From contig CAJQNF010000059.1 in assembly GCA_905479625.1 (NCBI GenBank), forward strand, positions 1-64,000: a stretch of 64,000 nt of DNA. The letters are read 5' to 3'. Shown one piece after another: positions 15,434-53,147 of the stretch. Origin of the DNA: an uncultured Flavobacteriaceae bacterium (lineage in GTDB: Bacteria; Bacteroidota; Bacteroidia; Flavobacteriales; Flavobacteriaceae). Each line of letters opens with the position of its first letter. The first letter of the stretch is position 1. The notes beneath the pieces are model-generated. The model did not search any database, had not been told where the DNA came from, and saw nothing but the letters and a program-made list of their open reading frames with translations. The translations under genes were made by a program, and so were the position numbers.

Positions 15434-16405
15434 TTAATCAATAGCATACCTATTTGTATTTGGGCTGCAAGTGCAAATTACTTTTGAAACCAGTGATTGA
15501 CTTAGGTTGATTTCGGTCAGACGATTTGATCTTTGATCTAAACATTTAGGGCACTTGGAAAATTGCTCCAGGTCCCAAGTGTCTGCAAAGACACGTCCTG
15601 CTCCCAAAGCAATTCCATAGGCCAATACTTCTTCAAGTGAATCAAGTGTTGGTTTTTCAAAATCTCCTTGCCTCATCAGGATATCCATAGCACCATTGCC
15701 TGGTCTAACAGGGATTAGGGTACAACTGTCAACGCCAGCCTCAAACGCCAGGTCCAATGATTTTTTTGCCCAGTAAACACCTTCTTCTTCACTCATAAAA
15801 GGTGGTCTTAGTAAAATAAAGGCCCTTGACCTAATCTGATGTTGATTGAGAAATTTTATGGCCTGTACAAAATCATCTACATCCATTTGTTTGTTGAGTT
15901 TTCTCAACACCTCAGGATGTACTGTTTCTAAACCAATGGCCACTTCAAGCTGAGGCTCTAGCATATCTCTGAATTCCAGGCATTGCTCATTGATCAGTTT
16001 GGGGTGAGCTTCAACCACTAACGTTTCAAAACCCGATACCAAAGACGCTATATCTTTATAATCCTTTACAGGAATCGCCTTTTGATCAAAAAAACTGCCA
16101 CTGTTATATAATTTGACCTGCTTGGCTTCAGGCATTTGTTCCAGGGCCCATTTGATCTGATCAGGAATGGCACCGAAAGGTACAGACGCTTCAGTTGTGT
16201 TTTTCCAAAGATCACACATTAAACAACGAAAGGAACATTCTTTATTACTAATAAAGATAATCCCTGTATCCAGAATTTCACCGGAAGCGCTTCTCTCCTT
16301 TTCTACCAGCCATCCATATGGTTTATAAGGATCTACTTGATTTCGCTCAGGCCTGTTGGATACGATCCAGTCACTGTTCAATAATTTCTCCTTCCTATTG
16401 CTCAT
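15434..16405 (-). CDS. Radical SAM protein (Elp3/TIGR01210-like), with C-terminal Cys pairs
   Basis: 'ECSFRCLMCDLW' CxxxCxxC; 'NSGSFFD', 'VAIGLETVHPEVLRKLNKQM', C-terminal CPKC and CTC. Likely start MSNRKEK at 16405 rather than the longer ORF start at 16543. Confidence 0.85.
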   Translation of the reverse strand: MSNRKEKLLNSDWIVSNRPERNQVDPYKPYGWLVEKERSASGEILDTGIIFISNKECSFRCLMCDLWKNTTEASVPFGAIPDQIKWALEQMPEAKQVKLYNSGSFFDQKAIPVKDYKDIASLVSGFETLVVEAHPKLINEQCLEFRDMLEPQLEVAIGLETVHPEVLRKLNKQMDVDDFVQAIKFLNQHQIRSRAFILLRPPFMSEEEGVYWAKKSLDLAFEAGVDSCTLIPVRPGNGAMDILMRQGDFEKPTLDSLEEVLAYGIALGAGRVFADTWDLEQFSKCPKCLDQRSNRLTEINLSQSLVSKVICTCSPNTNRYAID

Positions 16406-17726
16406 ACTTTGACAGGAATTCCTTTCTATAGGTAATATCCTTTTCCGGAAAATGCTTTTTAAAATTATTAGAAGAGGCTGCTCCATGCTGAAAACGGCGC
16501 TTCTCAAAAACAGGCATATTGATTCCTGTAATAGCCTTGACACCAGCCGCTACAATCTGACCCTTTAGATCATATAATTTTTGATGATCCCAGTCTGTAA
16601 GGTCTATATAAGGAATCCCCTCAGAAATTTCGATCACGTTTGGCAACGTGTAGGGACTAAATCCTTCAAAACCCAAAAGATCGGCAGGAGAAAAAGTACG
16701 CATATAACCTCTACTCAAGCCTCCTGAATATGTTAGGGAATGTTTGATTGAATCAACTCCCCATCCTTCATGATACAACATCAAATTATTCAAGACACTT
16801 TTAATGGTCAATTCAGGATTGTCTTCAATTGGGTAATCTTTAAGATTTTCATCTCCGCCATCACCGTCAATGATATACTTCCAATCCGGATATCTTGACC
16901 TGATACTTTGAAGTAATGACAAATTCATAGTGGCAGACTGTATATCCAAAGGTTTATAATCTTCAACCACATCAATAGCTTCTTTCCAATTCAACGAGTT
17001 ATAATCCAATTCGATGGGCTCCAAAAATAATTCAAGATCCAAGGCTCGTAAAAATTTCCTTGCTTGCAAAAGATCCTCCCCTTCACCTTCAACAGATAAG
17101 GTAAAAGCTTTTAAGCGAGATGGACTTTCTCCCAATTCTCTTAAGGCATGGTATAGTAAAACAAAAACAGAACCACTATCTATACCCGCTGAAAAAGTGA
17201 CACCAATAGGGCCTTCTGTTGCCCTGAATTGCAGCCATTTTTTGATCTCAGTATAGACCGCTCCAATATAGTCTCTTCCAATTTGCTCTATATCTTTTGG
17301 TTGGTAAGTATTGCGTTTTGGAGTAAAGAATCTTTCATAAATAGGATTCGGATCCGGGCACCCCAGCAACTCGATTCTGGTCACATAATGAGCAGGAGCC
17401 ATTCTGGTATAAGATGGGTGGAATTGATCGTCAAGTCCTTCTTTTTTAAGATGCTCATAAATCACGTCAATTCGTTCAGCGATGATCAATTGTGGTCCAA
17501 TAGCTTGTTTGGCGATAAAGTACCTGATTGGTCTTCCAATGGACCTTGCCATCTTGATTGTTTTTCCTTCAACCGATATCAGACAAAATTGCCCGTCGAT
17601 CTTTCGAACAGCCTCCAAATCACCTGATTTTACAATATCCACGGCCTCTTCATGACTCATGTTGTAAATGACATTTTTCTTTGGATCTGTCAAATCCACT
17701 ACCTTACTTATATATTGACTATTCAT
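16395..17726 (-). CDS. Asparagine-synthase-like ATP-PPi enzyme with N-terminal domain lacking the Cys nucleophile
   Basis: 'GVTFSAGIDSGSVF' PP-loop variant, 'IIDGDGGDENLKDYP' as in AsnB family; N-terminus MNSQYISK has no Cys at position 2. Confidence 0.82.
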   Translation of the reverse strand: MNSQYISKVVDLTDPKKNVIYNMSHEEAVDIVKSGDLEAVRKIDGQFCLISVEGKTIKMARSIGRPIRYFIAKQAIGPQLIIAERIDVIYEHLKKEGLDDQFHPSYTRMAPAHYVTRIELLGCPDPNPIYERFFTPKRNTYQPKDIEQIGRDYIGAVYTEIKKWLQFRATEGPIGVTFSAGIDSGSVFVLLYHALRELGESPSRLKAFTLSVEGEGEDLLQARKFLRALDLELFLEPIELDYNSLNWKEAIDVVEDYKPLDIQSATMNLSLLQSIRSRYPDWKYIIDGDGGDENLKDYPIEDNPELTIKSVLNNLMLYHEGWGVDSIKHSLTYSGGLSRGYMRTFSPADLLGFEGFSPYTLPNVIEISEGIPYIDLTDWDHQKLYDLKGQIVAAGVKAITGINMPVFEKRRFQHGAASSNNFKKHFPEKDITYRKEFLSKYEQ

Positions 17727-17833
17727 GAAAACTATTTAATGTAATTATTAAATTCTTTACAATTGATGGCTAATTTAATGAATTGGCCTTATCCATACCA
17801 ATGAGAAAGTGCTAAAATCAGCCCTTCATTGTT

Positions 17834-19486
17834 CTATTGATATCCTTTCCCCTTGTTAAAATCGAGATACTGATTAACTGGAACTTGATTGAACACTTCT
17901 TCCGAACCATCCGGCCATTGTATGCTTAATTCATCAATGATCGAATGATCCCCTAACCCAACATGAACTCGAGGCTCATTGTTGGAAAGATAACCACTTG
18001 TCCACTGATTGACCATAACTTGTTTTTTATCTCCTGTTCGCACTGTTACTTTGGCTCCTATCCCAGATGCCAAACCTTGTTCTCCCTTTAAAGTTAACCC
18101 AACCCAGTTTTTACTATTTCCTCCATCATTTCTGAGCAGACTAGCTGAAGCGATCAAATCTACGTGTGATATGGAGACGTCCATATCTCCATCATTATCA
18201 TAGTCCCAAACAACAAGACCCCTGCCTGATCTCTTGGTCGAAAAATACGCTCCGTGCATTTGACCAACATCTTTAAAATTGCCTTTACCATCATTTTCAA
18301 GAAGTAAAGGGTACTGAAGAATAAGTTCTTCAGCCGTTCCGTTGGCAGTAATCAGGTCCAAGTCTCCATCATTATCATAGTCGAACAAAGCGGCTCCCCA
18401 GCCACCTTTTCCAGCCATGGGTCCTGCAATACCACTTGTCTCAGTAATATCCTCAAACAAGCCGTTTCCTTTATTGCGATACAATGCTCCGTATTTCAAA
18501 TCAGATACAAAAATATCCAATAAACCATCTCCATCTATATCTCCCAAAGTAGCGTGCATAGAACCAGTTTTCTGCCCTTTACTATTCGCAGCGACACCGC
18601 TGGCAATGCCTACTTCTTTAAAAGTACCTCCGTCATTTCTGAATAAAAAATTAAACTGGTGGTCATTGGCCTGAAAAATATCCATGTCACCATCATCATC
18701 ATAATCAACAACAGTCAGTCCCATACATTTAGAATCCGGATAAAGCAATCCATTCTTTTCTGTTACATCTTGAAAACGTCCATCCGCCATTTGTTCATAT
18801 AGCATAGAGGCCTGACCTTTATATTCCGAAGGATGGGGCATCATTCCCGGAGTTTGCGTCGATATATACGCCGGATCAAAAGCCAGGAAATTACCAACCA
18901 TGGCGTCTAATCGTCCATCCAGGTTATAATCCCAAAATGATACTCCAATACTCCATTTGGTAAATCCATTTAGTTTTTCGGGGCCGGCAAGTCCTAATTC
19001 GGAAGTGATGTCTTTAAAAGTTCCATCGCCGTTATTATGGTAAAACACATTCGAACCATAGTTGAGTAGATAGAGATCTTCAAAACCGTCCTGATCAAGG
19101 TCTATAGCTCCGGCTGCCATGCTCCACTGCAAATCATTTATTCCGGCCTGTTTTCCTGTTTCAGTAAAGGTGCCGTTACCATTATTTTTATACAATTTGT
19201 CGCGACTATTCTTAAACGCTGCCCCTCCCTCATCTGAAATTCCTTCCAGATAGGTCCCGCTCATCATAAAAAGATCCATAAGTCCGTCATTGTTATAATC
19301 AAAAACTGTAATTCCAGAACCACTGCTTTCAAGAATATTCTCATAAGTATAATCCCCAAAAGTATATTTGAAATCAATTCCTGATGCCGCTGCAACATCT
19401 GTAAACATTACTTTTTGCTGGGCAAGCAGCAAGACAGGAAATACCACCAGAAACAGGCAGTAAAAAAGTTGTAATTTATTCTTCAC
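17834..19486 (-). CDS. CRTAC1-type FG-GAP/VCBS + ASPIC/UnbV secreted protein (GTG start)
   Basis: Signal peptide; repeated DxDxDG calcium-loop FG-GAP repeats; C-terminal 'GIGAKVTVRTGDKKQVMVNQWTSGYLSNNEPRVHVGLGDHSIIDELSIQWPDGSEEVF' = ASPIC/UnbV. Confidence 0.9.
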   Translation of the reverse strand: MKNKLQLFYCLFLVVFPVLLLAQQKVMFTDVAAASGIDFKYTFGDYTYENILESSGSGITVFDYNNDGLMDLFMMSGTYLEGISDEGGAAFKNSRDKLYKNNGNGTFTETGKQAGINDLQWSMAAGAIDLDQDGFEDLYLLNYGSNVFYHNNGDGTFKDITSELGLAGPEKLNGFTKWSIGVSFWDYNLDGRLDAMVGNFLAFDPAYISTQTPGMMPHPSEYKGQASMLYEQMADGRFQDVTEKNGLLYPDSKCMGLTVVDYDDDGDMDIFQANDHQFNFLFRNDGGTFKEVGIASGVAANSKGQKTGSMHATLGDIDGDGLLDIFVSDLKYGALYRNKGNGLFEDITETSGIAGPMAGKGGWGAALFDYDNDGDLDLITANGTAEELILQYPLLLENDGKGNFKDVGQMHGAYFSTKRSGRGLVVWDYDNDGDMDVSISHVDLIASASLLRNDGGNSKNWVGLTLKGEQGLASGIGAKVTVRTGDKKQVMVNQWTSGYLSNNEPRVHVGLGDHSIIDELSIQWPDGSEEVFNQVPVNQYLDFNKGKGYQ

Positions 19487-22400
19487 TTAAAATTGGTTTT
19501 ATAGAATTCTGAAAAGCCTTATGACTCACCAGCCTGGTATTGTACTCATTATTATATTTTAAGAGCTCAGTTTGTGGAGGATAAATATCCTGTCCGGATG
19601 GCGGATAAGCTGCCATTCCGTGATAAGGAAGTGGTTGAACAGCATTCCCATAGGCCGTATTAAAATCTCCATCTTTCACCCAACCTACACTATGTATTAG
19701 AAAATCTCTGGTCCATCCTTCTTTTAATTCAGGAAGACTTGCAGCATCAAAATTAATGGAAGTTTCATCACCCGCATTGGAAATAATATATTGGTTGTCT
19801 GAAGCTTGAAGTAATGGCATCACATCTCCATAGCGGGTGTATCGGCCGGTTAGATCACGCCATTTTGTGTTCCGGTCTACCTGCGCATAATCAAACCAGT
19901 GAGGGCCATATCGGCCTCCTTTTCGATAGCTTTTTGAAAAGCCTCTGTAATGTAGCTCAGCGTTTTTGGCCTTCATCACATTGGTGACCAAATTATTTTC
20001 ATTTTCAGCATCCCCGAAAAATATTTCATCCCAATAAATCTCCATATTCGTACGGATACGCAAACGACGGTCTTTACTTAAAAACTTATCTTTAAGATCA
20101 ACGATCACTGTTTTGTCTTTACCCATAGGGAAACTCATGTTTGTTTCTATGGTTTGCCATTGACCTACCTGATTGATCACTTGTATGACCGGAAACTCAA
20201 GTTTTAGGGTCTCCGATTGTGAAAGTGCCACGTTAATACTCGCGTCTGTAGGAAAGATCCACCCTCTTAAAAATAAATGTAGATTTTCCAGTTGTCCGGC
20301 TTCTCCAGGATCAAGAATCAGGTCATGTGTTTTTGTGATGCCCTGATATTTACCAGGCTCCAAATTAGAGATATACTGATCATCTTTTGCAAGGATCATC
20401 GGCAACACATCTCGACCTTGACCATCAAAAGCCGTTATAGGGGCATGTTTCTTTTCTATCTGATACAATTGCATACCGGGAAATGGTGGCGGGCTAAACT
20501 GCTCAGGAACAAAAACTGCTAATTCTTTAGGGTGATCCACAGCCACTAATTCAATTTGATCCATATAGATCGTTTCCCACAATTCAGAGGTAATTTGAAT
20601 CGAGTAAACTCCATCCTTTGCCTTTAACTGGTTTGATTCTATCTTGATATAATCATCAGAAGCGGCTGAAAAAGCATATTGAGTGGTTCCTCCCATAATC
20701 CCTAAAGGCATTCCCAGAGCGCTCCTCCAGGTAATGTCTTTTACAAACTCGTATTCTTTTCCATTCCAGGTATATAAAAAAGGACACGATCCTTTTAATG
20801 TCTGAGATTCAATCAAAGCCTGATCTGAATCAGGTAGCAATATATTCTGGGGCACGCCATTTGTCCATGTAATCCTTATGATATCAGCTTTGGACCTGTT
20901 CCCCAACCCAAAATATATATTTGGATCAGTAACCACCATACTTTGATAAAGGTCCCCGGCACGCATCTCAACTTTTGCACCAATACCAAAATAATTGTTC
21001 TTGGCACTACCTGTTCTTAAACCAACAAGTTTCATATTGACGTAATGGTTCATATTGCCACCATCATTTCTCAATAATTTGATTCCTCCTTCAGAAAGTG
21101 CCAGGAGAATATCTCGATCCCCATCTCCGTCATAATCAGGCACAGCTAATTGATGGCCACTATATTGGTCCTCTGGCAGAATTTCTGATATATTCGTAAA
21201 ATCACCTGAACCTGAATTGTGAAACAGTTGCAGTCCTGAGCTATTGTTTACTTCTGGTTCCCCTAGAAGGAGTAGGTCCTGAAATCCATCATTATCAAAA
21301 TCAATGAATTCAACATCGCGAACACTTAAGTTTTCAATTCCCTGAAACATTGAAGTCATATCCGAAATTGCTTCAAATTTTCCCTCACCTGAATTCGTAT
21401 AAAGTCTGCTTTGTTTTCCTGTTAAGGAACCTATAAACACATCCAGAAAACCATCATTATTATAGTCTCCCACGGCTACAGTATTATTTCCTTTTTCAGA
21501 TCCAAGCCCTGATTTACCTATAACTTCGAATTTGCCTTGACGCTTATTTGTATATAACAGATTCCTTCCGTTTTCATCTACTGTAATCAGATCCAAATCG
21601 CCGTCATCATCAAAATCGCCAAAAGCAGCATCTAAAACATTTTTAGTTGCTTCACCTGAAAGTCCTGTCTCCTGTCCTATTTCTTCAAATGATCCATCTC
21701 CATTATTTCGAAACACTTTATTGCCTTGTTTTGAAGCCTCAAAAAGATCAAGATCTCCATCCTGATCCAAATCAAAAAATAAAGTTTTTGTCACCCCGGC
21801 CCCAGTAATTTTTGAGGTCTCAGTTTTGTCTTCAAAAATACCCTTATCAGCATTTCGATACAGCAGCGATTCATTTTCGAGGTTTATATAAAGATCAAGA
21901 AAACCATCATTGTCAACATCAGCAAATGTAGCTCCGGTTTCTCTTCCTTTGTGTTCCAGTCCAACTTCACCGGCAACATTTTTAAAACCGTCAGAAGTAT
22001 TTGAAAAGAGATAATGCTCATATGATTTCTGTGTAGCATCGTAACTTCCCACATAAATATCGGTTTTACCATCCCCGTTATAATCGGCTGTTTTTATATG
22101 AGTCGTATTTTTTAAAGCTTCATCAAATTCTTGTGAGGCCAAGGCTTGCAGTCCAAAGGTAGTAGTTACGTCTTTGAACTTTATCACTTCCAACACAGAC
22201 CTGTCATCAAGCGACTCATTGCTCACCTGCCGGTTATAGGTGATCAGCGGAAATCCTATGAGAGAACCACCAGGTCCCTTCAGCGCATTAATACCAGACT
22301 GGTATGGAAAAGAAACCTTCATATAATTATGAAATATGGTAAAACTGATCAAGGCCTTTTCCGTATCCTGCTTTTGTAATAATTTTATGGTTTGCACATA

Positions 22401-23039
22401 GTATTCTTTTGCCTCCTTGGGGAATTCCGGAAACTGCCTTTGGATAATCTCCAGGCGTTCAATCGCCTGGTCAGAAGCACCTTCATTAATCAGCAATTCG
22501 GTCAACTGCAATTGAGGAACTATATTGTCAGGAGCGTATTCTACAAGTTGTAATAAATGAATTTTTCTGTTTTCTAAAGCGGCATCTCCGTTATCAGCAG
22601 AATACATTTCAGCCAAATCATAGAGAATTTTCACATGATCTGGTTCAATTTCCAGCGCTTTTTGCAGTACTATTATCGCTTCCTCTCGCCTACCGTCCAT
22701 TTGATACACAGTAGATAGCAATAATTTTATATCAGCATCACTGGGATCGATCTTACCAGCTTTAAAAAGTTGTTTTTCCGACTCCTTATACTTCCCCATG
22801 CGGAGGTATACCAAACCCAAATTTGCATAACCCAGTTTATCATCAGGAGCAAATTCGATCATTTTAAGAAATTCGCTCTCTGCTTCTTCAAGTTTGAATT
22901 CTTCCAAATAAGCCAGTCCGAGCGTCTGGGTAGTCATTATTTCTATTGCTTTTTTTCGTCTATCAGCCTCAGACTCTTTACAGCCAAAGAAACCAACAAA
23001 CATCAATAGCAACAGACATAAAATGCTAATGTTCTTCAT
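19476..23039 (-). CDS. TPR + FG-GAP/VCBS + ASPIC/UnbV lipoprotein with long C-terminal extension
   Basis: Lipobox 'FVGFFGC'; N-terminal TPR repeats; many DxDxDG FG-GAP repeats; 'GIGAKVEMRAGDLYQSMVV..YFGLGNRSKADIIRITWTNG'; C-terminal 'CPFLYTWNGKEYEFVKDI' region. Confidence 0.88.
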   Translation of the reverse strand: MKNISILCLLLLMFVGFFGCKESEADRRKKAIEIMTTQTLGLAYLEEFKLEEAESEFLKMIEFAPDDKLGYANLGLVYLRMGKYKESEKQLFKAGKIDPSDADIKLLLSTVYQMDGRREEAIIVLQKALEIEPDHVKILYDLAEMYSADNGDAALENRKIHLLQLVEYAPDNIVPQLQLTELLINEGASDQAIERLEIIQRQFPEFPKEAKEYYVQTIKLLQKQDTEKALISFTIFHNYMKVSFPYQSGINALKGPGGSLIGFPLITYNRQVSNESLDDRSVLEVIKFKDVTTTFGLQALASQEFDEALKNTTHIKTADYNGDGKTDIYVGSYDATQKSYEHYLFSNTSDGFKNVAGEVGLEHKGRETGATFADVDNDGFLDLYINLENESLLYRNADKGIFEDKTETSKITGAGVTKTLFFDLDQDGDLDLFEASKQGNKVFRNNGDGSFEEIGQETGLSGEATKNVLDAAFGDFDDDGDLDLITVDENGRNLLYTNKRQGKFEVIGKSGLGSEKGNNTVAVGDYNNDGFLDVFIGSLTGKQSRLYTNSGEGKFEAISDMTSMFQGIENLSVRDVEFIDFDNDGFQDLLLLGEPEVNNSSGLQLFHNSGSGDFTNISEILPEDQYSGHQLAVPDYDGDGDRDILLALSEGGIKLLRNDGGNMNHYVNMKLVGLRTGSAKNNYFGIGAKVEMRAGDLYQSMVVTDPNIYFGLGNRSKADIIRITWTNGVPQNILLPDSDQALIESQTLKGSCPFLYTWNGKEYEFVKDITWRSALGMPLGIMGGTTQYAFSAASDDYIKIESNQLKAKDGVYSIQITSELWETIYMDQIELVAVDHPKELAVFVPEQFSPPPFPGMQLYQIEKKHAPITAFDGQGRDVLPMILAKDDQYISNLEPGKYQGITKTHDLILDPGEAGQLENLHLFLRGWIFPTDASINVALSQSETLKLEFPVIQVINQVGQWQTIETNMSFPMGKDKTVIVDLKDKFLSKDRRLRIRTNMEIYWDEIFFGDAENENNLVTNVMKAKNAELHYRGFSKSYRKGGRYGPHWFDYAQVDRNTKWRDLTGRYTRYGDVMPLLQASDNQYIISNAGDETSINFDAASLPELKEGWTRDFLIHSVGWVKDGDFNTAYGNAVQPLPYHGMAAYPPSGQDIYPPQTELLKYNNEYNTRLVSHKAFQNSIKPILSEE

Positions 23040-23101
23040 TGGATCAAAGTTAAGTAATAAATAGATAATTGACTGAATTATTTTCAGTCAGGATAGATGA
23101 A

Positions 23102-24193
23102 TTATTCCCTTATTAACAGCAGTTTTCCTGTGTTTTTTAATCTTCCCTGAGAATCAAATTGAACAGTACCTGTAACCCCTTGATAATTAATTTGCGACAT
23201 ATGTTTCTGTAAACTTTCGCGATCATTTCCTGACTGTTTTAAGGCTTCAGAGACCATCATGATGCCATCATAGGCATAGGCCGCCACTGGTCCGGACCGT
23301 ACCTTGCATTTCGTGAAAAATGCTTTTTGAAAATCGTCAGCATCAGATCTCATCCAAGATCCTGAGGTTACTTCTTTAAACTGATCCTTTGTTTCAAACT
23401 GATTCGAAAAATAATTTTCAGATGCCTGAGCTGCTAAGTTTGTATAGACAGGAATGGTTTTTCCGGATACACCATGTTGTTTCAAGAAATCTGATATTGG
23501 GATTTGTCTTCCCAGAAGAATGATGGCATCTAACTTGTTATTTTCAATTCTGGACTTTAGATCTTTTGATCCCGAAGATGGGTAGGTAATTGAAAAAATG
23601 TTCAGGTTTTCAATTCCATTTGAGGCCTCAAAGAAACTTTTTAAGGCTTGTTCAGCATCATATGTTTGGTCATTGACCACAAGTATATTTTGGAATCTTT
23701 TTTTTACACTGACCTCTTCAAGCAACAAAGTCGCCTGTTGGTCATCCGTAGGCACCAACGAAAAATACCAGGGCACATAAGCTTTGGAAAGACTGGGATC
23801 ACTTGCCCATACAGAGAGGTACGTCACTTGTGTTTTTGCGATGACTTGTTCCGCCAAATGCGAATTCCTTCCATCAATGGAACCAACAATAGCCGTAACT
23901 TTTTCCTTAAACACCAAATCAACCACCTCACTCGATCCGGCACCCCAGGCACCTTCTACAGAACGAATGATCAGTTTTAAAGGCTTTCCTTTTACGCCTC
24001 CCTGATCATTGATCTGCTTTACCGCCAAGCCAGCCCCACATGTTGCTGCCGCTTCATTCTGTTTGTTCACTAAGAGTCCAAGTGAGATATAGGTATTCTT
24101 TTCATCCCCATTCTGAGCCTTTATAACCGGTCCGGTTATGATGCACAGCGTAAGGAAAGAGATTAAAATATATATTTTACGCAAATCCTTCAA
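23102..24193 (-). CDS. LivK-type periplasmic binding protein (orphan)
   Basis: Signal peptide; 'SLGLLVNKQNEAAATCGAGLAVKQINDQGGVKGKPLKLIIRS', 'YAYDGIMMVSEALKQSG', 'GVTGTVQFDSQGR' typical of Peripla_BP_6. Confidence 0.88.
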   Translation of the reverse strand: MKDLRKIYILISFLTLCIITGPVIKAQNGDEKNTYISLGLLVNKQNEAAATCGAGLAVKQINDQGGVKGKPLKLIIRSVEGAWGAGSSEVVDLVFKEKVTAIVGSIDGRNSHLAEQVIAKTQVTYLSVWASDPSLSKAYVPWYFSLVPTDDQQATLLLEEVSVKKRFQNILVVNDQTYDAEQALKSFFEASNGIENLNIFSITYPSSGSKDLKSRIENNKLDAIILLGRQIPISDFLKQHGVSGKTIPVYTNLAAQASENYFSNQFETKDQFKEVTSGSWMRSDADDFQKAFFTKCKVRSGPVAAYAYDGIMMVSEALKQSGNDRESLQKHMSQINYQGVTGTVQFDSQGRLKNTGKLLLIRE

Positions 24194-24217
24194 TTATATT
24201 CCTTTAGAAATAGCTTT

Positions 24218-25528
24218 TCAATAGCCTACCATTTTTCCTGAATGAGCTCTTTCACCCAACTCAGGACTTGGACTGAATTCAAATTGTCCATTCTTAACTT
24301 CAGCCATCCAAATATCTCCAATATCATTCCAGCTTTCATCCAAGATGATCTTTCCTGTGACACCTTCATAACCTTGAAAGGATGTCAGGTCTGTCAACAC
24401 ATCTCTTATCAGCACCCGATTCAACCCTACCTTTTGCGTAGCTTTGACAATCAGATTCATCCCATCATAGGCATGAGCGGCAAACACATCCGGCTCTATC
24501 CCAAACCTTTCTATATAATCCCTTTTAAAAGCGGCTAATTGTATATTTCCTGATAAAGGATTGTAAGGACAAGTACTGATCACACCTTCGGCCAGATCAC
24601 CAGCGAGCTCAAGAAATTCATTAGAAACGATCCTGTCGGAAGCATACACCGGCTGGTTCATTCCCATTTTCCTGATCTGTTGCAAGATCAAGCCAGATTC
24701 CCTGGCATTCGCCCATATCAGAATGGCATCAGGTGACACTCTTTTAATATTACCCAGCTGCATGGAAAAATCAGTTTCTCCGTCATTAAACCGCTCTTCG
24801 ATCATCATAGGATGTCCGAGCCTTACTGCTGCTCCGGAGTATTCCATAATGCCAACCCTTCCATAGCGCGTGTTGGTCCTGATCACCGCAACGCGCTCAT
24901 GTTTCTTCTCTTCAAAAATATGGGTTGCCAGAGCATAGCCACTTTGGCGATCATCACTGATCACTCGAATTGCCCAAGGAATATTGGTTTCCGTAAAAGT
25001 CGGATCCGGATCACCTGTGTTGACCATCATGATCTCCATCTTAAGAGTAGCTCTTAGCGCAACGTGAGAAACAATATCATCAATAGATCCCAACCAGGCC
25101 CATACCTTTTCCTCATCCATTTTTACAACCTCATTGGCAGCTGCTCCCCAAAGTCCCACATCATTATGAACCATCAATACGTAAGGTAATCCCTTAAAAC
25201 CTCCATTTGCGTTGGCTTGCTCCAAGGCAAGGGTTGCTCCATTCAACATTTGTTCTCCAAGCGGCACCAGGGAAGATCCTTCCAAAGGGCCAAGAAAACC
25301 TATGCGAACCTCCTCGAGGTTATCAGGGGCCACTTTGTCTCTTCCTGCTCCATAGAATTGAACTGGTTCGATAAAATGATACTTATACGCCTCCTGGAAT
25401 TTTTGATATGGAAATAGTTTATCGGGCGTTTTTCCATATTTCAAATCCTTTTCCTGAGCCTGTAATCCCCCTAGGAGAAAAATGAAGGCCCCTAAAAAAC
25501 AGATCCAAAACCTGATTTTCGCTTGCAT
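24218..25528 (-). CDS. LivK-type periplasmic binding protein (orphan)
   Basis: Signal peptide; 'IGFLGPLEG..GEQMLNGATLALEQANANGGFKG', 'HAYDGMNLIVKATQKVG', 'YEGVTGKIILDESWND'. Confidence 0.9.
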   Translation of the reverse strand: MQAKIRFWICFLGAFIFLLGGLQAQEKDLKYGKTPDKLFPYQKFQEAYKYHFIEPVQFYGAGRDKVAPDNLEEVRIGFLGPLEGSSLVPLGEQMLNGATLALEQANANGGFKGLPYVLMVHNDVGLWGAAANEVVKMDEEKVWAWLGSIDDIVSHVALRATLKMEIMMVNTGDPDPTFTETNIPWAIRVISDDRQSGYALATHIFEEKKHERVAVIRTNTRYGRVGIMEYSGAAVRLGHPMMIEERFNDGETDFSMQLGNIKRVSPDAILIWANARESGLILQQIRKMGMNQPVYASDRIVSNEFLELAGDLAEGVISTCPYNPLSGNIQLAAFKRDYIERFGIEPDVFAAHAYDGMNLIVKATQKVGLNRVLIRDVLTDLTSFQGYEGVTGKIILDESWNDIGDIWMAEVKNGQFEFSPSPELGERAHSGKMVGY

Positions 25529-25539
25529 ATGATTGCTAT

Positions 25540-26133
25540 TTAGTTTGATTTACAAATGGCATAGACTTCTATTTCAACTAATAAAGTTTCCCAACATAAT
25601 CTTGCCTGAATTCCTGTACTGGCCGGAAGCGGATCAAGATTCAACCATTGATAGAAAGACGTTCTAATCTTGTTGAACTCGTCATAATCTCTCTCTATAT
25701 CTCTTAAGTAATTACTGGTTCTTACCACATCATGCCAGCTCATACCTTCTGCTTCAAGTAAATTGGTAATATTCACGTAGGTTCTCCATAACTGAGCTTT
25801 AAAATCTCCAATATGTTCTGGTTTCCCCTCCTCATTAACACTTGCAGTTCCAGAGATCAATAATACTTTATAACCCCCAAAATCTAATCTTAAAGCCCTT
25901 GAAAATGACGATGGCTTCTGGTAATCATATGCCTCGTTTATCGTATGAGGAGCGTGTACCACATGTTTTTCTATAGGAGGCCGCTCATTATGAATAGTTG
26001 GGTAAACTGATGGTGTAATACTATTCTCATCAGATAGAATACCGAGTTTTCTCATCTCAAATTTTTCTCCATCTGTTAGTTTATTGAGATCGATTAATAA
26101 TTTTCTTTCCTGAATGTCTATTGTATTGCTCAT
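25540..26133 (-). CDS. RidA (YjgF/YER057c/UK114)-family protein with N-terminal extension
   Basis: 'VLLISGTASVNEEGKPEHIGDFKAQLWRTYVNITNLLEAEGMSWHDVVRTSNYLRD' and 'PLPASTGIQARLCWETLLVEIEVYAI'; no signal peptide. Confidence 0.8.
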   Translation of the reverse strand: MSNTIDIQERKLLIDLNKLTDGEKFEMRKLGILSDENSITPSVYPTIHNERPPIEKHVVHAPHTINEAYDYQKPSSFSRALRLDFGGYKVLLISGTASVNEEGKPEHIGDFKAQLWRTYVNITNLLEAEGMSWHDVVRTSNYLRDIERDYDEFNKIRTSFYQWLNLDPLPASTGIQARLCWETLLVEIEVYAICKSN

Positions 26134-26176
26134 AATTCCTGATTTTTATTTTTGTTCCCTATTATTATATTATTTA

Positions 26177-27337
26177 TTATTTGGTCACCAGACCCTTCTC
26201 TTGTTTATTCAGTAATTGCCCTCTGCTAAGCCCCTCTGAGGTAGCTACCCAGATCATGTCATCTTTAAGATCCATACCTAGGATATAATTATGGGATAAA
26301 GAGGGAGTCATGGCCACCTCTGTTGTAGATGTGCCTATTGATATCTTCGCCTTTCCGTTTAAATTATTTTTATTCTTGGTATAGGTCACCCAATTGTCAC
26401 CGTCAGTGCAACTAAGACCCTTATCTGTTGCTATATAAACGAACTTTCCTGATGCTTTTATGAAATTGATAAAATTACTGGCAAGACCACTGTCATGATC
26501 AAAGTAACCTTTCCAGCGAGTTCCGTCATAACGGCTTAATCCAAAATAGGTACCCACCCATAGCTTACCGTTCGCCCAGGAAGTTCCTGTAGTAATATCA
26601 TGTACCAGACCATCATCCGGAAACAGGTCTATTTCCATATTACCATCTGGATCTGTATAATCTCTAAATTGCTTTGTTTCTTTGGTATATTCTACAACGC
26701 CACCACCCCAGGCAGCGATAAAAATTTTACCATCACCACTGCAAACCCCATAGGTCCATGGCTCATGCATTGGTGCGTTCTGTTCGGTGAAAATTTCCCA
26801 CCCTTTATTGTGCGTATCATATTTTCCGGCGCCCCCTCCTGTGGCTACCCATACGTCTTTCTCATCGCAGGTAACAGCATAGATCAAATCATTAGGCATG
26901 CCACTGTTCATCTGATTGAAGTTTTCAAATCTCCCAGCCGACCAGCGTGACAATCCTCCCATGGTGCCTATCCACACATCTCCTGTTTGCTCACTAATAT
27001 CAATGGCCAAAACACCATTGTGTGCCAATCCATCTTCTGTAGTGTAAGTAGTCCATTGATCGTTTTCATATACTGACAATCCATCATGGGTACCTACCAA
27101 AACCCGGTCACCATCAATTCGGACACAATAGGCCTTATCTGATCCCAAACCATCTTTTGCACTAAAATTTTTCCATTTCCCGTAAATGGGTAATCCACCC
27201 GATTCAGTTTTATTTATCTCATGAATTGTATCTGATGTGCTTCTATCAACAGTCATAAAGCTCAACGAAATCACAACAGATACTGTTAAAATCAATATCA
27301 CAATTAGGGGTTCATATTTTAGATTCATGTTTTTCAT
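26177..27337 (-). CDS. Secreted two-component-regulator-propeller (reg_prop) beta-propeller protein, no kinase
   Basis: N-terminal membrane segment; repeated 'W..ytt.dGLa.n.v..i' blades such as 'WTTYTTEDGLAHNGVLAID' and 'DVWIGTMGGLSRW'. Confidence 0.85.
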   Translation of the reverse strand: MKNMNLKYEPLIVILILTVSVVISLSFMTVDRSTSDTIHEINKTESGGLPIYGKWKNFSAKDGLGSDKAYCVRIDGDRVLVGTHDGLSVYENDQWTTYTTEDGLAHNGVLAIDISEQTGDVWIGTMGGLSRWSAGRFENFNQMNSGMPNDLIYAVTCDEKDVWVATGGGAGKYDTHNKGWEIFTEQNAPMHEPWTYGVCSGDGKIFIAAWGGGVVEYTKETKQFRDYTDPDGNMEIDLFPDDGLVHDITTGTSWANGKLWVGTYFGLSRYDGTRWKGYFDHDSGLASNFINFIKASGKFVYIATDKGLSCTDGDNWVTYTKNKNNLNGKAKISIGTSTTEVAMTPSLSHNYILGMDLKDDMIWVATSEGLSRGQLLNKQEKGLVTK

Positions 27338-27347
27338 AAGTCTGTTT

Positions 27348-29381
27348 TTAATTCGAATATATCAATGCGCTTTGCTGAATATCAAGTGCTTCTTTGTCAT
27401 ATTCAGGACTCCTTAAGGATTTTAAATAGTTAACAAGATCATTCAAATCACTTTTACTCATATCGTTTACATAACCATGCTTATCATCTGTTCCATAAAT
27501 GGTCCATATTTCCTCCAGTGTCTTGGCCCGCCCGTCGTGCAAATAAGGAGCCGAGGCATATACATTGGTTAAATGTGGCGTATCAAAAAGTATTGGATCA
27601 TCAGTATCAGCCAGGGTACTTACATCAGCGAATTTTAGATTTGTGTAAAGAGGAGCGGGATGACAGGTCACACAACGGTTGTTTTCCGGAATCAGATTAC
27701 CTGAATTATCTTCTGTTCGCTCATAAAGCACCTTACCTCTCTGTTGTGAAGCCGTCAACTCTCCTTTAGGATTATACATTAAATTGGGCGGCTGTTTGAT
27801 ACTTCTCATAATATAGGCTGATATAGCATCCAGATCGTCATAGCTAAACTGCTCGGTTCTCGTAAGCACGGTGGAAAAACGAATACCATCCTGCTTATAC
27901 ACCGTTTGATTCATTCCATTCCACTTAAAAGGTGCCGTGTCACCAACTTCGTGTAAAGATTGGGTATTGGTCAAGTTGCGACCCATTTGTTTTCCTGCCA
28001 TATTATAGACCAAACCATCTTCGTGGTTATCGGGATGACAGGTATAGCAAGAATACTGTGTTTGAAAAGTATGACCGGCATTATTAAAAAGCCTTCTCCC
28101 CTTCCGGGCCACAGAAATACTTACCGGGCCACCAAGATCAATTGAAGTCACTTTTTCGAGTGTTTCAGTATCAAACACCGAAATTTTGTCGCCAAGTTGT
28201 TCTGCTACGAACAGTTTTTTACCATCAAATGAAAGTGTCATTCCTTTTGGATTCGCCCCTGTCTTGATTCTTTTTATAACAAATCGTCTGCTTAGATCAA
28301 GGTTATTGGCATAATCCTTTCTAACCTTTGAATCTGTTTGCCGAAGCATGGCTCTTATGGAATCTATGGCAATCACAGAGATCATATCGACCCCAGAACT
28401 TGACACAAAAGCTTTTTTCCCATCAGGAGTAATGACTATATCAAAAGGATCCGGGTAATAGGCATTTGGCTCATCAAGTAAAAACTGAATAATTTCACCG
28501 TCTTTACCTCTTTCTATGACACCGATCCCATGCGTCATCATCCAACCACCTTCTACCTGAACAGAAGGTATCTGATTCTTTGGTCTGATCAACGTTACCA
28601 TGGCAAGATCACCTTCGGGTGTATAGGCCGCGTTTTCCATAAGGTATGCGGATTCCACATTCTTTTTAAGGGCTCGCTGAGTATGTGTATTGATCAGCGT
28701 AAGCTCCGTGATCAGCGTTTCATCATAGGCTGCCATGTTTGCCCTTCTTCCTGTGACCAGGATTTCTTCTCCTTGGGGAGATATAGCTATTCCTGTTGGA
28801 TTGTTTCCTGCAGTGAGCCTTCTGACCTCCTTTTTACTTTTCAATTCGATCACAGAAACATCCGACCCATAGGCATTGACCACATAAAGATGTGTTTCGT
28901 TTTGATCAAGTATGATTCCAGCCGGACCATTTCCGGCAGGAATGATATCCACAACTTCTAATAAAGCCAGGTCTATAACACTCACATAATCAGACCATTC
29001 ATTGCTTACATAAGCCTTTTTCCCAGTTTGGTCAAGAATGACACTATGTGGATGTTGACCCACTTTGATCTTCGTTACCACCACTTTTGTTTCAAGATCT
29101 ACAACAAGTAATTCATCCGTATCCTGAGCTACAACATATGCCCATTTATTATTTTGATCAACCGTCAGGTTAAAAGGTGAATAATAATCTGAATTAATAA
29201 GCTTTGTGATCAATTTGTTCTTTGAGAGCGGTACATGACATGAGGTACAAAGTAAAGGGTGATCAGTTACTGCAGTTCTTTCATTGACATGATCACGTGC
29301 CATTTGTCGGCCAGGATATAGTATAAGTATCACAAGCCCGATAAGGAGCCCTGTAATTACATATATCTTTAACCTATTCAT
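27348..29381 (-). CDS. YVTN beta-propeller fused to di-haem cytochrome c peroxidase/MauG-like domain
   Basis: Three CxxCH motifs (CTSCH, CYTCH, CVTCH); YVTN repeats such as 'GKKAYVSNEWSDYVSVIDLALLEVVDIIPAG'; 'FDTPHLTNVYASAPYLHDGRAKTLEEIW' MauG/CCP signature. Confidence 0.9.
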   Translation of the reverse strand: MNRLKIYVITGLLIGLVILILYPGRQMARDHVNERTAVTDHPLLCTSCHVPLSKNKLITKLINSDYYSPFNLTVDQNNKWAYVVAQDTDELLVVDLETKVVVTKIKVGQHPHSVILDQTGKKAYVSNEWSDYVSVIDLALLEVVDIIPAGNGPAGIILDQNETHLYVVNAYGSDVSVIELKSKKEVRRLTAGNNPTGIAISPQGEEILVTGRRANMAAYDETLITELTLINTHTQRALKKNVESAYLMENAAYTPEGDLAMVTLIRPKNQIPSVQVEGGWMMTHGIGVIERGKDGEIIQFLLDEPNAYYPDPFDIVITPDGKKAFVSSSGVDMISVIAIDSIRAMLRQTDSKVRKDYANNLDLSRRFVIKRIKTGANPKGMTLSFDGKKLFVAEQLGDKISVFDTETLEKVTSIDLGGPVSISVARKGRRLFNNAGHTFQTQYSCYTCHPDNHEDGLVYNMAGKQMGRNLTNTQSLHEVGDTAPFKWNGMNQTVYKQDGIRFSTVLTRTEQFSYDDLDAISAYIMRSIKQPPNLMYNPKGELTASQQRGKVLYERTEDNSGNLIPENNRCVTCHPAPLYTNLKFADVSTLADTDDPILFDTPHLTNVYASAPYLHDGRAKTLEEIWTIYGTDDKHGYVNDMSKSDLNDLVNYLKSLRSPEYDKEALDIQQSALIYSN

Positions 29382-29387
29382 AAATCG

Positions 29388-30803
29388 TTATTCTTTACCT
29401 GCTAATAATCTGGGTTCTCGAGGTATTTGTATTGGTTCCTTTAAAACCGATAAAGGTTGCCTGTTTGCCGGAACGACCTCATTTCCTTGATGGCAACCAA
29501 CGCAGGCCCTTCTTTCGTTAGGCCTTAGGTTGATCCAACTACTGGGCCCGTTCACAATTTCTCCTTCTTCATTCAAGGTTTGTAACTGAAAGGGAGTGTC
29601 TGCCTTAAGCTTCAAATAAACAGAACCATCTTTTTCTACATCTACGGTTCCCAAGGAAGAGGTAAGGCCCAACACCTCAATTTTAACGGCTTTAGCTCCT
29701 TTTGTCATCGCAGTATCCTGATGAAATCCTAAAAAATTAACATCCTGACATAGCAAGAGCGCGGTTTGCTCCTTCATGTTCACTTCACTTGGAATTTTCT
29801 TGGGCACCATATGCTGTTCCACTACTAATGCTTCTATTGTTTTATACCGCGGATCATTAAAAACAGACCGGACAAGTTTCATATTTCTGGGGTCCAACTC
29901 AAACAGCCCATAAGATGCTTCTTTTGATTTTCTATAACACACCAGTAAACGTCCATTGACCATAGGGCTTATCCCTATAAAATCTCCACCTACTTTTTCC
30001 GATATGAGTTTTCTGCTTTTTAAGGGATTGTTATAGGAGATAGAAAATAGCTTCCCTAACCCTTCATCATTCTTTTCAAGAAGATAAATCTCACCAGTTT
30101 CGGTCTCCATTCCCTTGGAAATTAACTGACCCTGATCTTCACTTTTATAGAATAGCATTTCTTTTGTTCCATCAGGTCGCATGACCATAAGATTAGACTT
30201 GTTCAATTCAGAAGTCAGTGAGCGATTCATGCTGATGATTCTACCATCATGCAACATAGACGTTCCGGCATAAGACCCGGGGTTAAAAGTGATTTGTTCT
30301 TCTTGATTTCCGCCACTTGCTCTTGCAAAAAGGGCCTGTCCCTTCTGCCCGTTGTCTGAGTAAACAACTTGGCTATATATAATTTTATCTCCAGGCAGAT
30401 AGACTGGATCAGTGCAATTTTCCTTCGAATTTGTAAGTGGCTTATATTGTAAACTGGCCAGGTCCATTTCATAAATTTGCCAGGCATCATGCTGATTTTT
30501 TTGCCCTGAGAAAACCATCTTTTTAGCATTGAATGAAATAGCAGGAGAAAAGGCCGAATAAAAATCTTTACTTAACAATAGAGGCTGCCTTTGCGGATTA
30601 GCCGGGTCCATCATCATTATTTGAGCTCCTGAAAGAACCCTTGGAAAGTCTGTTGAATTAAAATCTTTTATTTCCTGATCCTTATCTACCTGTGTCATAA
30701 TGATCATCCCTTCGGAAGAGCGCTGATCACAGGATGTAAAAAGCCCTCCTGTAATTAGCATCAGGCTAGAAATGATAAAAAACGATCGTAATTCTTTAAA
30801 CAT
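29388..30803 (-). CDS. HzsA-related (hydrazine synthase alpha subunit-like) monohaem lipoprotein
   Basis: Lipobox 'GGLFTSC'; 'FSPAISFNAKKMVFSGQKNQHDAWQIYEMDL', 'LQTLNEEGEIVNGPSSWINLRPNERRACVGCHQG' with one CxxCH. Confidence 0.8.
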   Translation of the reverse strand: MFKELRSFFIISSLMLITGGLFTSCDQRSSEGMIIMTQVDKDQEIKDFNSTDFPRVLSGAQIMMMDPANPQRQPLLLSKDFYSAFSPAISFNAKKMVFSGQKNQHDAWQIYEMDLASLQYKPLTNSKENCTDPVYLPGDKIIYSQVVYSDNGQKGQALFARASGGNQEEQITFNPGSYAGTSMLHDGRIISMNRSLTSELNKSNLMVMRPDGTKEMLFYKSEDQGQLISKGMETETGEIYLLEKNDEGLGKLFSISYNNPLKSRKLISEKVGGDFIGISPMVNGRLLVCYRKSKEASYGLFELDPRNMKLVRSVFNDPRYKTIEALVVEQHMVPKKIPSEVNMKEQTALLLCQDVNFLGFHQDTAMTKGAKAVKIEVLGLTSSLGTVDVEKDGSVYLKLKADTPFQLQTLNEEGEIVNGPSSWINLRPNERRACVGCHQGNEVVPANRQPLSVLKEPIQIPREPRLLAGKE

Positions 30804-30813
30804 ATTTCATAGG

Positions 30814-32487
30814 CTAAAGTGGTTCCTTAATTGTAAGTATTTTATTGACCTCTATATGCTCTAAAACCTGACGTTTTCCTGAAGGCCATTTAATTTCTAT
30901 TTCATCTATAATATCAGCCGCGGCCAATCCGAAATGTACTCTTGCATCATTTTGAGACAGGTAACCCGTAGTACTCTTCTTCTGGGCAGTTTGCACCTGA
31001 TTTCCCGTACTTATTTTGATGCGGCAACCAATCCCATCCCTGTTGCTAGAGGTTCCAATAAGATTCAGCAAGATCCAGTTGGCCTGATTCCCTTTATTAT
31101 TTCTTAAAAATTTACCCTGACCATCGAGGTTCACAATGTAAATATCAAGATCTCCATCATTATCATAATCACCCATACACGCACCACGACCAACATTTTC
31201 TTCTCTAAAATAGGCACTGAGATCAAGGGAAATATCATTAAATTTTCCTGCTCCAACATTATCAAATAACTGATCTTCCTGACCATAGAGGTGTTTCAAT
31301 TCTCCATTGGCTTTAAAAATATCTGCATCACCATCATTATCATAATCTAAAAAAGAGGATGACCAGCCAACAAATTGCCCTGAAGCCATTGAGATACCCG
31401 AAGCATATGAATTATCTTTAAAAATTCCATTGCCAAGATTTTCATAAAGAGAGCAATAATTATCGTCTGAAATAAAAATGTCGAGTAGTTCATCATGGTT
31501 ATAATCCGCAAAATCAACCGACATACTTACGGTCGCCTCTCCAGCCTGACTAAATCCTGTTCCTGACAAAGTTCCTTGATCACTAAATCCCTTTCCTTGG
31601 TCATTATGCCATAAATAATTAACGGTATGATCATTTGCCACATAAATATCGACAAACCCATCATCATCATAGTCAGCAGCGCCAACACCCATGGCTCTGC
31701 CATCAATGTCAACAATACCCATTGGCGCAGTTACATCTTCAAATGTACCATCGCCCTTATTTTTAAATAAAATATCTTTTTGACTGTCATAAGCCAAGGG
31801 GCCCGGAAAGCCATCCGGAGCATAATAATAGGAGTAATCAGGATCATAATTCAGATAATTCCCTACATAGAGATCCAGCAAACCGTCATTGTCATAATCC
31901 AGCCAAACAGCACCTACACTGCATTGCTCACCTCCTCCTATTCCAGCCTTATCCGTAATGTCTTTGAAAGTACCATCTCCATTGTTTAGATAAAGTGTGT
32001 TCTTACCGTAGTTGCTCAAATAGATGTCCGGATAGCCATCATTATTGATATCCCCAACTGTGATACCCATGCTATACCACGGTCCGTCTACACCTGCTTC
32101 CTTACTCACTTCCTTAAAAGTTCCGTTTTGAAGATTCTTGTATAAGTGATTGTGCGGGTTTGTCGCCTTGGGTTTGGTCTTGCTAAAGCCTTCAAGCCAG
32201 CTGCCGCTGCAGATGTAAACATCCATATAACCATCTTGGTCGTAATCAATAAATGCTGCTCCCCCTCCCACAGATTCAATAATATTCTCCATTTCTGAAG
32301 CGCCTATGGAATGCACAAAATTTAATCCTATGTCTTGTCCAATCTCCTGGAAATATTCGTCATTTGCTGCTGGAGAAATAGACACTCCCGAAGCGTCACT
32401 GTGATCAATTTTGTCACTAAAGTCACATCCCGTAATCAATAAAATAATGACTAAAAAAGCTGACCCTTGGGATACCCTTTTGATCAT
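30814..32487 (-). CDS. CRTAC1-type FG-GAP/VCBS + ASPIC/UnbV lipoprotein
   Basis: Likely start MIKRVSQ (32487) with lipobox 'LLITGC'; FG-GAP DxDxDG repeats; 'GIGCRIKISTGNQVQTAQKKSTTGYLSQNDARVHFGLAAADIIDEIEIKWPSGKRQVL'. Confidence 0.9.
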   Translation of the reverse strand: MIKRVSQGSAFLVIILLITGCDFSDKIDHSDASGVSISPAANDEYFQEIGQDIGLNFVHSIGASEMENIIESVGGGAAFIDYDQDGYMDVYICSGSWLEGFSKTKPKATNPHNHLYKNLQNGTFKEVSKEAGVDGPWYSMGITVGDINNDGYPDIYLSNYGKNTLYLNNGDGTFKDITDKAGIGGGEQCSVGAVWLDYDNDGLLDLYVGNYLNYDPDYSYYYAPDGFPGPLAYDSQKDILFKNKGDGTFEDVTAPMGIVDIDGRAMGVGAADYDDDGFVDIYVANDHTVNYLWHNDQGKGFSDQGTLSGTGFSQAGEATVSMSVDFADYNHDELLDIFISDDNYCSLYENLGNGIFKDNSYASGISMASGQFVGWSSSFLDYDNDGDADIFKANGELKHLYGQEDQLFDNVGAGKFNDISLDLSAYFREENVGRGACMGDYDNDGDLDIYIVNLDGQGKFLRNNKGNQANWILLNLIGTSSNRDGIGCRIKISTGNQVQTAQKKSTTGYLSQNDARVHFGLAAADIIDEIEIKWPSGKRQVLEHIEVNKILTIKEPL

Positions 32488-49165: not shown

Positions 49166-49287
49166 TTATTTGGTTATTTATGTTGATAATAAAAAATATA
49201 CATAGATTATATGTTCAAGACGGAACAACTAAAGTATGAGTATAGATCATGAGAAATAATAGATTTCACTTATCAGTTCTTACTTAA

Positions 49288-50049: not shown

Positions 50050-50208
50050 AAGTTTGATTTGGATGACGTTAAGATAGCACTAAAAAGGAAAATTGGAAAA
50101 TGAATTTGTAATAAATATTGACTATAAATCATTGTCAAAATCTCAAACTAGTAAATCTCACAACAACTCTTACCACATAATATATGGCTGATCACAGCCC
50201 CTTAAAAA

Positions 50209-50246
50209 TAAAAAACTCCATGAAAATAATTTCCATAGAGTTTTTC
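50209..50246 (-). terminator. Probable intrinsic terminator
   Basis: AAAAACTCCATGAAA..TTTCCATAGAGTTTTT imperfect inverted repeat just downstream of the 50313-50897 minus-strand gene. Confidence 0.55.
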
Positions 50247-50312
50247 TAATTTATCCTCAATCAAACTACAGTCCCAAAAAAAAGAAAACTGTAAAATGAT
50301 ATAAAAAATCAA

Positions 50313-50897: not shown

Positions 50898-51020
50898 GTT
50901 TCAATTTTTATTTTAAAATTAGGTTTTGTTTATGTTGCCGCTAAGATAGGCCTATTCAATCAATTTTTGCATCAAACTAATCATATAAAATCCCAGAATT
51001 CCTTTGGTTATCATCACTCT

Positions 51021-52367: not shown

Positions 52368-52616
52368 TTTTTTATTGATTTAAAATTCACCACTTGTGAA
52401 TCTGACTTAAATATAATTATTTAAAACTTTTTAGAAATGCAAATTACATATAACTATTGGCAGCAGTTATCTAAGAATTTCGTCTTTGCTAAAAATTAAC
52501 TCAAACCATTAAACTATTATGCAAATAACCGGTCTAAATACTTGAAGAAAACAAAATAAAAATCATTAATTTTATTCTTGATCATAAAACTGAATTCTCA
52601 TTAAAATCAATGCCCT

Positions 52617-53123: not shown

Positions 53124-53147
53124 CGAACCTTAAGATCTGTATTGGAT

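Follow-up and report, generated by a model that had tools for sequence, protein, structure and literature searches.

A hydrazine-synthase-like gene cluster with a chorismatase-like gene in a marine Bacteroidota genome

In this study, we examined a marine Bacteroidota genome carrying eleven co-directional genes whose core is a relative of the anammox enzyme hydrazine synthase (HZS). This core is found in the same order in several bacterial phyla and is repeatedly joined to enzymes of chorismate metabolism, which points to an uncharacterised redox system that, in our tentative reading, depends on a dedicated aromatic small molecule. HZS was long treated as having no relatives. Our analysis shows that its alpha and beta-gamma homologues sit in a fixed multi-gene module across several phyla, including cultured marine Flavobacteriia (Lutimonas, Maribacter, Lutibacter), together with chorismate-pathway genes. 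This gives the unknown HZS-like family a testable biochemical lead and culturable hosts, and bears on what the enzyme family did before anammox.

The stretch analysed, hereafter the window, comprises 64,000 nucleotides of an uncultured Flavobacteriaceae bacterium (GCA_905479625.1, contig CAJQNF010000059.1, positions 1 to 64,000). A preliminary description made from the sequence alone had reported eleven consecutive minus-strand genes at 15434-32487, and this observation was confirmed (Table 1). In order of transcription, the genes are separated by 10, 6, 10, 43, 11, 24 and 62 nt, an 11-nt overlap (H/I), 107 nt, and a second 11-nt overlap (J/K, with the ATG start of K at 16405). Domain searches agreed with the earlier assignments, returning FG-GAP/UnbV, HZS_alpha, YNCE propeller with MauG and cytochrome c and three CxxCH motifs, reg_prop, Ribonuc_L-PSP, two Peripla_BP_6, TPR/FG-GAP/UnbV, FG-GAP/UnbV, Asn_synthase and Radical_SAM, while signal peptides and lipoboxes were judged by eye from the translations rather than with a predictor. 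Two of the cytochromes can be better named, B being homologous to HZS alpha and C to fused HZS beta-gamma. The 107-nt gap before J, previously considered a possible boundary of a second transcription unit, shrinks to about 15 nt in L012, one of the related loci compared, which weakens the case for a separate J-K transcript. Promoter and terminator scans were uninformative, the latter finding no more hits than shuffled sequence (12 against 12.7), so co-transcription is untested. No tRNA or Rfam hit was found in the window.

Table 1. Genes of the cluster and its divergent neighbour, with positions in the window
Gene	Position	Strand	Assignment	Supporting observations
A	30814..32487	-	CRTAC1-type lipoprotein (FG-GAP_3 repeats + UnbV/ASPIC)	PF13517 1.5e-50, PF07593 6e-21; beside B in 45/47 well-flanked loci
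B	29388..30803	-	HZS alpha homologue, beta-propeller + HZS_alpha middle domain, one CxxCH (residues 434-438); lipoprotein-like N-terminus	PF18582 1.4e-18; profile against 5c2v_A 3.1e-49; AlphaFold model pLDDT 87, top fold match 5c2v_A E 2e-23, TM(query) 0.77
C	27348..29381	-	Fused HZS beta + gamma homologue with one extra N-terminal CxxCH (residues 45, 445, 570); N-terminal anchor	NF052342 7e-56, below its cut-off; profile against 5c2v_B 7.5e-69 and 5c2v_C 1.7e-35; Trp487 and both gamma-type CxxCH invariant in 34 homologues
D	26177..27337	-	Exported reg_prop beta-propeller	PF07494
E	25540..26133	-	Cytoplasmic YjgF/Rid-fold protein, chorismatase-like, lacking the RidA catalytic Arg	PF01042 7e-15; TIGR04444 chorismatase 7e-5, far below cut-off; position 172 is Ser/Ala in 28/28
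F	24218..25528	-	LivK-type periplasmic binding protein 1	PF13458 2e-39; no ABC permease/ATPase gene within the cluster
G	23102..24193	-	LivK-type periplasmic binding protein 2 (TTG start as listed)	PF01094 1e-24, PF13458 3e-24
H	19476..23039	-	TPR + FG-GAP + weak UnbV lipoprotein with a large uncharacterised C-terminal region	Downstream of G in most well-flanked Bacteroidota loci; H-like upstream of A in several Verrucomicrobiota
I	17834..19486	-	Second CRTAC1-type exported protein	PF13517, PF07593 1.4e-22; beside J-K also when J-K lies upstream of A (loci L048, L052) or on its own contig (L148)
J	16395..17726	-	AsnB/beta-lactam-synthetase-like ATP-dependent amide synthetase without an N-terminal Cys nucleophile	PF00733 1e-9; AlphaFold pLDDT 84, best fold match beta-lactam synthetase 1mbz E 1.9e-13; 54-87% identity to 29 homologues
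K	15434..16405	-	RaSEA-like radical SAM protein with CxxxCxxC and conserved C-terminal cysteines	PF04055 1.4e-8; TIGR01210 1e-31, below cut-off; directly downstream of J in nearly every genome where both were located
X	32844..36227	+	Divergent large UnbV/FG-GAP protein, a conserved neighbour rather than part of the operon	X-like genes upstream of A in several Bacteroidales and Verrucomicrobiota loci

The gene order is more than chance, as it is identical in four other genomes of the genus and recurs across phyla. The core A-G is found in the same order in Bacteroidota, Marinimicrobia, Acidobacteriota, Verrucomicrobiota and, less completely, Planctomycetota and Latescibacterota, and gene distances co-vary (r mostly 0.7-0.97). 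The preliminary description had set co-occurrence of fewer than four to five of these families in other genomes as grounds for abandoning the idea of a system; this is clearly not the case, since among 47 loci with enough flank A is present in 45, B in 45, D in 47, F in 45, G in 38 and E in 30. These and the following co-occurrence counts are not corrected for phylogeny, and the wider set of 79 loci was picked by C. The interpretation offered at that stage was supported in part. A conserved multi-gene system coupling extracytoplasmic cytochromes to cytoplasmic small-molecule enzymes is supported, whereas four points require correction: the system is not fully undescribed, since its core of CRTAC1, alpha, beta-gamma and two substrate-binding proteins matches the "clade III" HZS homologues published in December 2025 (Hagglund et al. 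2025, PMC12758564); E looks like a chorismatase relative and not like an imine deaminase; J-K is a second cassette that also occurs without the core; and the small molecule is more likely chorismate-derived than generically of amide or amine type.

To discern whether the complex could form hydrazine, we compared the residues of B and C with those of the anammox enzyme. Following the CxxCH of B, no tyrosine is found at the position equivalent to the proximal Tyr591 (zinc site at haem alpha-I) in the 30 aligned sequences. In the gamma-like part of C, His144 is replaced by Trp in 34/34 homologues (Trp487 in the window protein), Asp168 is not conserved (Phe502), and Cys165 is Asp in the window (Asp498), although it is Cys in many relatives. 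Hydrazine synthesis is therefore unlikely, a conclusion also reached in PMC12758564. Instead, the two CxxCH domains at 445 and 570 with the intervening, invariant Trp487 place this part of C in the MauG/cytochrome c peroxidase superfamily (PF03150 1.8e-8). A divergent HZS-like enzyme acting on nitrogen compounds other than NO and ammonium, by N-N or N-O chemistry, would be congruent with the overall alpha-beta-gamma homology, the cysteine of many relatives and a proposal of a broad HZS-like family with alternative substrates (PMC10732223). Given the residues above, we consider it very unlikely. No HAO-family multihaem protein (PF13447) was found in five genomes of the genus either, although in this search the controls were silent too and there was no positive control.

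Gene E is not a standard RidA. The arginine required for imine hydrolysis (Arg105; PMC4433059) is missing in 28/28 homologues, which led us to reject imine detoxification as its role. Rather, E resembles the FkbO/Hyg5 chorismatases, sharing 20 columns, including F77, R79, SGTA(S), R144, C180, E187 and E189, with longer chorismatase-like proteins of genomes that lack E. Such a longer protein is carried by 14/16 E-less genomes against 2/23 E-bearing ones (Fisher 8e-7), replacing E there, and in four genomes one lies near the core or J-K. Nevertheless, E scores only 22 bits against a chorismatase cut-off of 325, the longer replacements also stay below that cut-off, and E is one domain where chorismatases have more; cleavage of chorismate was not assayed. 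A second link to this pathway is provided by a DAHP synthase (NF006421 4e-136), which is part of the gene run in 25/79 loci, at different positions in Bacteroidota, Acidobacteriota and Planctomycetota, but is absent from the window's cluster and from the remaining 54/79.

Genes J and K form a pair whose relation to the core is less strict. J occurs in 9/100 relatives, which include all 8 with HZS alpha, and in 36/50 core-bearing genomes, with K beside it. On the other hand, J-K occurs without the core in 20 of 24 J-bearing genomes among 396 Bacteroidota, often followed by a QhpG/CmlS-like flavoprotein, and is missing from the Acidobacteriota core clusters of the GMC type described below, so that J-K as an obligate part of the core was rejected. 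It is conceivable that an HZS-like A-H module and an independent I-J-K (or J-K-flavoprotein) cassette merely became adjacent in Bacteroidota without functional coupling. We regard this as unlikely, because all 8 HZS-alpha relatives carry J, because J is on the core contig in about 25 of 36 genomes (as judged from the sizes of the contigs), including Verrucomicrobiota with a different arrangement, and because its position relative to A varies while linkage is kept. Single-sequence searches of the PDB with J and K, and a profile search with K, returned no hits; only the profile and the predicted fold of J gave matches.

Taken together, our favoured though tentative explanation is that the cluster encodes an HZS-fold periplasmic c-type cytochrome complex (B and C) of the published clade III type, with CRTAC1 lipoproteins (A, I, H), a propeller (D) and two ligand-binding proteins (F, G), and that its gamma-like part is MauG/peroxidase-like rather than hydrazine-forming. 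In this view the complex is tied to cytoplasmic chorismate chemistry, to which E would contribute as a chorismatase-like YjgF protein, relatives a dedicated DAHP synthase, and J-K ATP-dependent amide formation and a radical-SAM step. We propose that E, with J-K where present, makes or tailors a chorismate-derived carboxylate or amide, which is exported, bound by F/G and used by the B-C complex as redox cofactor or substrate. Homology, fold, synteny, co-occurrence, the replacement of E and the linkage to DAHP synthase rest on our data, whereas the identity of the product, its export, its binding to F/G and its use by B-C are inferences, made without enzymatic activity or expression data, and no exporter is apparent. 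A further-reaching possibility, which we consider doubtful but not excluded, is that the HZS-like complex works with a new, dedicated chorismate-derived redox cofactor or mediator, made by E with the DAHP synthase, tailored by the J-K pair and delivered in the periplasm by F/G. This would represent a new cofactor system in several phyla and a relative of the ancestral context from which anammox HZS arose.

Alternatively, the cluster may be a catabolic or respiratory module, in which F/G capture an environmental substrate, for example an aromatic or polyol, the B-C complex is the electron acceptor of its periplasmic oxidation, and the cytoplasmic genes process the product or are accessory. In 10 Acidobacteriota-type loci a GMC-family oxidoreductase follows the core, often with a second small conserved gene, and binding proteins without transporters, such as MxaJ, can serve periplasmic redox enzymes. 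However, such a module does not explain the dedicated DAHP synthase, a biosynthetic entry enzyme, or the exchange of E with longer chorismatase-like proteins, and no dehydrogenase gene is found in the Bacteroidota clusters. We therefore consider it possible, but rather unlikely.

Among known systems, the clade III HZS homologues (PMC12758564) are closest. In line with that description, the cluster has a CRTAC1 gene upstream of alpha, alpha upstream of fused beta-gamma, two ABC substrate-binding proteins downstream, a short alpha with one haem motif and without haem alpha-II, one extra haem motif in beta-gamma, and Trp at gamma-His144; no tree with the published sequences was built, so placement inside the clade was not examined. 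In the sections searched, that paper names no RidA/chorismatase-like gene and describes no propeller D, DAHP synthase, TPR gene H or J-K pair, while here Bacteroidota, Marinimicrobia, Acidobacteriota and Verrucomicrobiota carry the fuller arrangement. Beyond it, a literature search found no operon description linking CRTAC1/UnbV with cytochromes. With anammox HZS (PDB 5C2V) the cluster shares fold and subunit plan (propeller and haem alpha domain, beta propeller, di-haem gamma), but differs in the residues given above, in the missing alpha-II domain, in the fusion of beta and gamma with an extra haem, and in the gene order, alpha then beta-gamma. The FkbO/Hyg5 chorismatases (TIGR04444; PDB 4BPS, 5AG3) share with E the C-terminal YjgF domain with F.R, SGTA, Cys and EIE positions, whereas E consists of this one domain plus an N-terminal extension of ~85 residues. 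Consistent with beta-lactam synthetase and asparagine synthetase B, J has a degenerate N-terminal domain and a predicted PPi-loop synthetase fold, but identity is 15-18%, the substrate is unknown, J is paired with a radical SAM protein, and none of 30 J homologues has a Cys at position 2, the nucleophile of glutamine-dependent AsnB. Finally, K aligns over nearly the whole model of RaSEA, the archaeosine radical SAM lyase (TIGR01210), including the CxxxCxxC motif, yet it scores 110 bits against an equivalog cut-off of 212, is bacterial, and has J rather than ArcS as its partner.

Examination of the window, part of a contig (C59) of a 2.67-Mb draft genome of 151 contigs, confirmed the eleven co-directional genes of the preliminary description, with gaps of 6-107 nt and two 11-nt overlaps. 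Domain assignments made in that description were supported by Pfam and NCBIfam, and its interpretation, in which cytoplasmic enzymes including a RidA-like protein build or modify a small molecule that an extracytoplasmic redox complex binds or uses, was partly supported. We designate the genes A to K in order of transcription. Four of the five UnbV matches of the whole genome lie in this window. The nearest named relatives among the loci found are Lutimonas species. Further features of the window are collected in the following table.

Additional features of the window and their assignments
Position	Strand	Feature	Observation
19476-23039		Gene H, C-terminal third	About 430 residues after the UnbV domain match no Pfam family, although the gene is conserved across Bacteroidota
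32844-36227	divergently transcribed	UnbV/FG-GAP protein, 1127 residues	Conserved beside the cluster in the genus and similar to genes upstream of A in other Bacteroidota
46340-47143		Eukaryotic-type (alpha) carbonic anhydrase	PF00194, 8e-49
47354-54314	minus	GH2 and GH53 glycoside hydrolases and a polysaccharide deacetylase	Suggests galactan degradation

To identify B and C, both were compared with hydrazine synthase (HZS). B matched the HZS_alpha domain (1.4e-18) and, as a profile of 30 homologues, solved hydrazine synthase alpha at 3.1e-49, over its propeller and its haem alpha-I region. The AlphaFold model of B (pLDDT 87) has HZS alpha as its best solved match (E 2e-23, TM 0.77 by query length). 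C matches HZS beta over its full length (7.5e-69) and HZS gamma (1.7e-35), fused in one chain, with an additional N-terminal CxxCH.

A genome-wide scan with C gave 79 loci. Among the 47 with enough flank, the neighbours A (CRTAC1-type lipoprotein), B, D (propeller), E (Rid-like protein), F and G (two binding proteins) were found in 45, 45, 47, 30, 45 and 38, respectively; as the loci were selected by C, the presence of the other genes is conditional on C, and many of the genomes are incomplete metagenome bins. The order is nearly constant in Bacteroidota, Marinimicrobia, Acidobacteriota and Verrucomicrobiota, with less complete versions in Planctomycetota and Latescibacterota, while in many Acidobacteriota B precedes A. 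In one single-contig MAG (G017, CP070731.1; loci L019, L020 and L023) the module is split, with A-B near 797 kb followed by hydrogenase-like genes, C-H near 34 kb in the record of L023, and J-K near 173 kb, representing either a genuine rearrangement or a misassembly. Distance matrices of the periplasmic core genes A, B, C, D, F and G correlate at 0.83-0.97, and those of these genes with E at 0.62-0.74. In the genus of the window the cluster is patchy: HZS_alpha was found in 8 of 22 genomes, and in none of the genomes searched outside the genus.

E is not an ordinary RidA, since the arginine needed for imine hydrolysis (PMC4433059) is Ser or Ala in 28/28 homologues. It has weak similarity to FkbO/Hyg5 chorismatases and shares 20 conserved columns with longer chorismatase-like proteins. 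Some Bacteroidales lack E, and two of these (L035, L038) keep what look like short remnants of it fused to the start of the F reading frame. Of 16 genomes without E in the cluster, 14 carry a longer chorismatase-like protein, against 2 of 23 with E (Fisher p 8e-7, without correction for phylogeny, as for all co-occurrence statistics here); one of the 14, genome G111, is counted on a weaker match (2e-10). In four genomes such a protein lies near the core or the J-K pair (L047, G122, G141, G144). In addition, a DAHP synthase (NF006421, 4e-136), the entry enzyme to chorismate, is part of the gene run in 25/79 loci: between F and G in Bacteroidota, between E (or D) and F in Acidobacteriota, beside F in a planctomycete, and after G in two loci (L070, L071). 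We regard the convergence of these two lines as the most useful new evidence.

J, an AsnB-like protein without an N-terminal Cys, is modelled well (pLDDT 84) and is closest in fold to beta-lactam synthetase, hence it probably forms an amide or cyclises with ATP, while K is RaSEA-like. J occurs in 9 of 100 relatives, including all 8 with HZS alpha, and in 36 of 50 core-bearing genomes, and K lies directly beside J in nearly all. Nevertheless, the pair is not exclusive to the core: of 24 J-bearing Bacteroidota among 396, only 4 have C, though all 4 C-bearing genomes have J. In genomes without the core or away from it, J-K is mostly followed by a flavoprotein related to QhpG and CmlS (GESSTP motif), recurring as a three-gene cassette (L125-L138, L141, L146) that is independent of the HZS-like core and whose substrate is not known. 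A rival explanation is that core and J-K are two uncoupled neighbours. In ten Acidobacteriota-type loci (L068, L073, L082, L083, L084, L085, L090-L092, L098) a GMC-family flavin oxidoreductase follows the core, in several with a second small conserved gene; these clusters lack J-K where tested, and most lack the N-terminal haem of C. A catabolic oxidation module is a second rival.

To explain these findings, we propose that cytoplasmic E, with DAHP synthase where present and J-K in many genomes, makes or tailors a chorismate-derived compound that the periplasmic binding proteins F/G and the B-C cytochrome complex use as redox cofactor or substrate. The genes, their homologies, their linkage and the replacement of E rest directly on our data, whereas the compound, its export and its use are inferred, and we hold this proposal only tentatively; localisation was judged by eye, and neither expression nor activity was examined.

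With respect to known systems, the window has the features of the HZS homologues of "clade III" described in December 2025 (PMC12758564), namely CRTAC1 upstream of a short alpha, then a fused beta-gamma with one extra haem motif, then two substrate-binding proteins. That paper concludes that HZS key residues are not conserved, consistent with our data: there is no Tyr after the alpha CxxCH, Trp is found at gamma-His144 in 34/34, and there is no Asp at gamma-168. The equivalent of gamma-Cys165 varies, being Asp in the window and close relatives and Cys in many others. N-N chemistry on other substrates is a third rival explanation. The Trp is the residue of MauG and cytochrome c peroxidases (PMC12758564), so the gamma-like part is more likely peroxidase-like.
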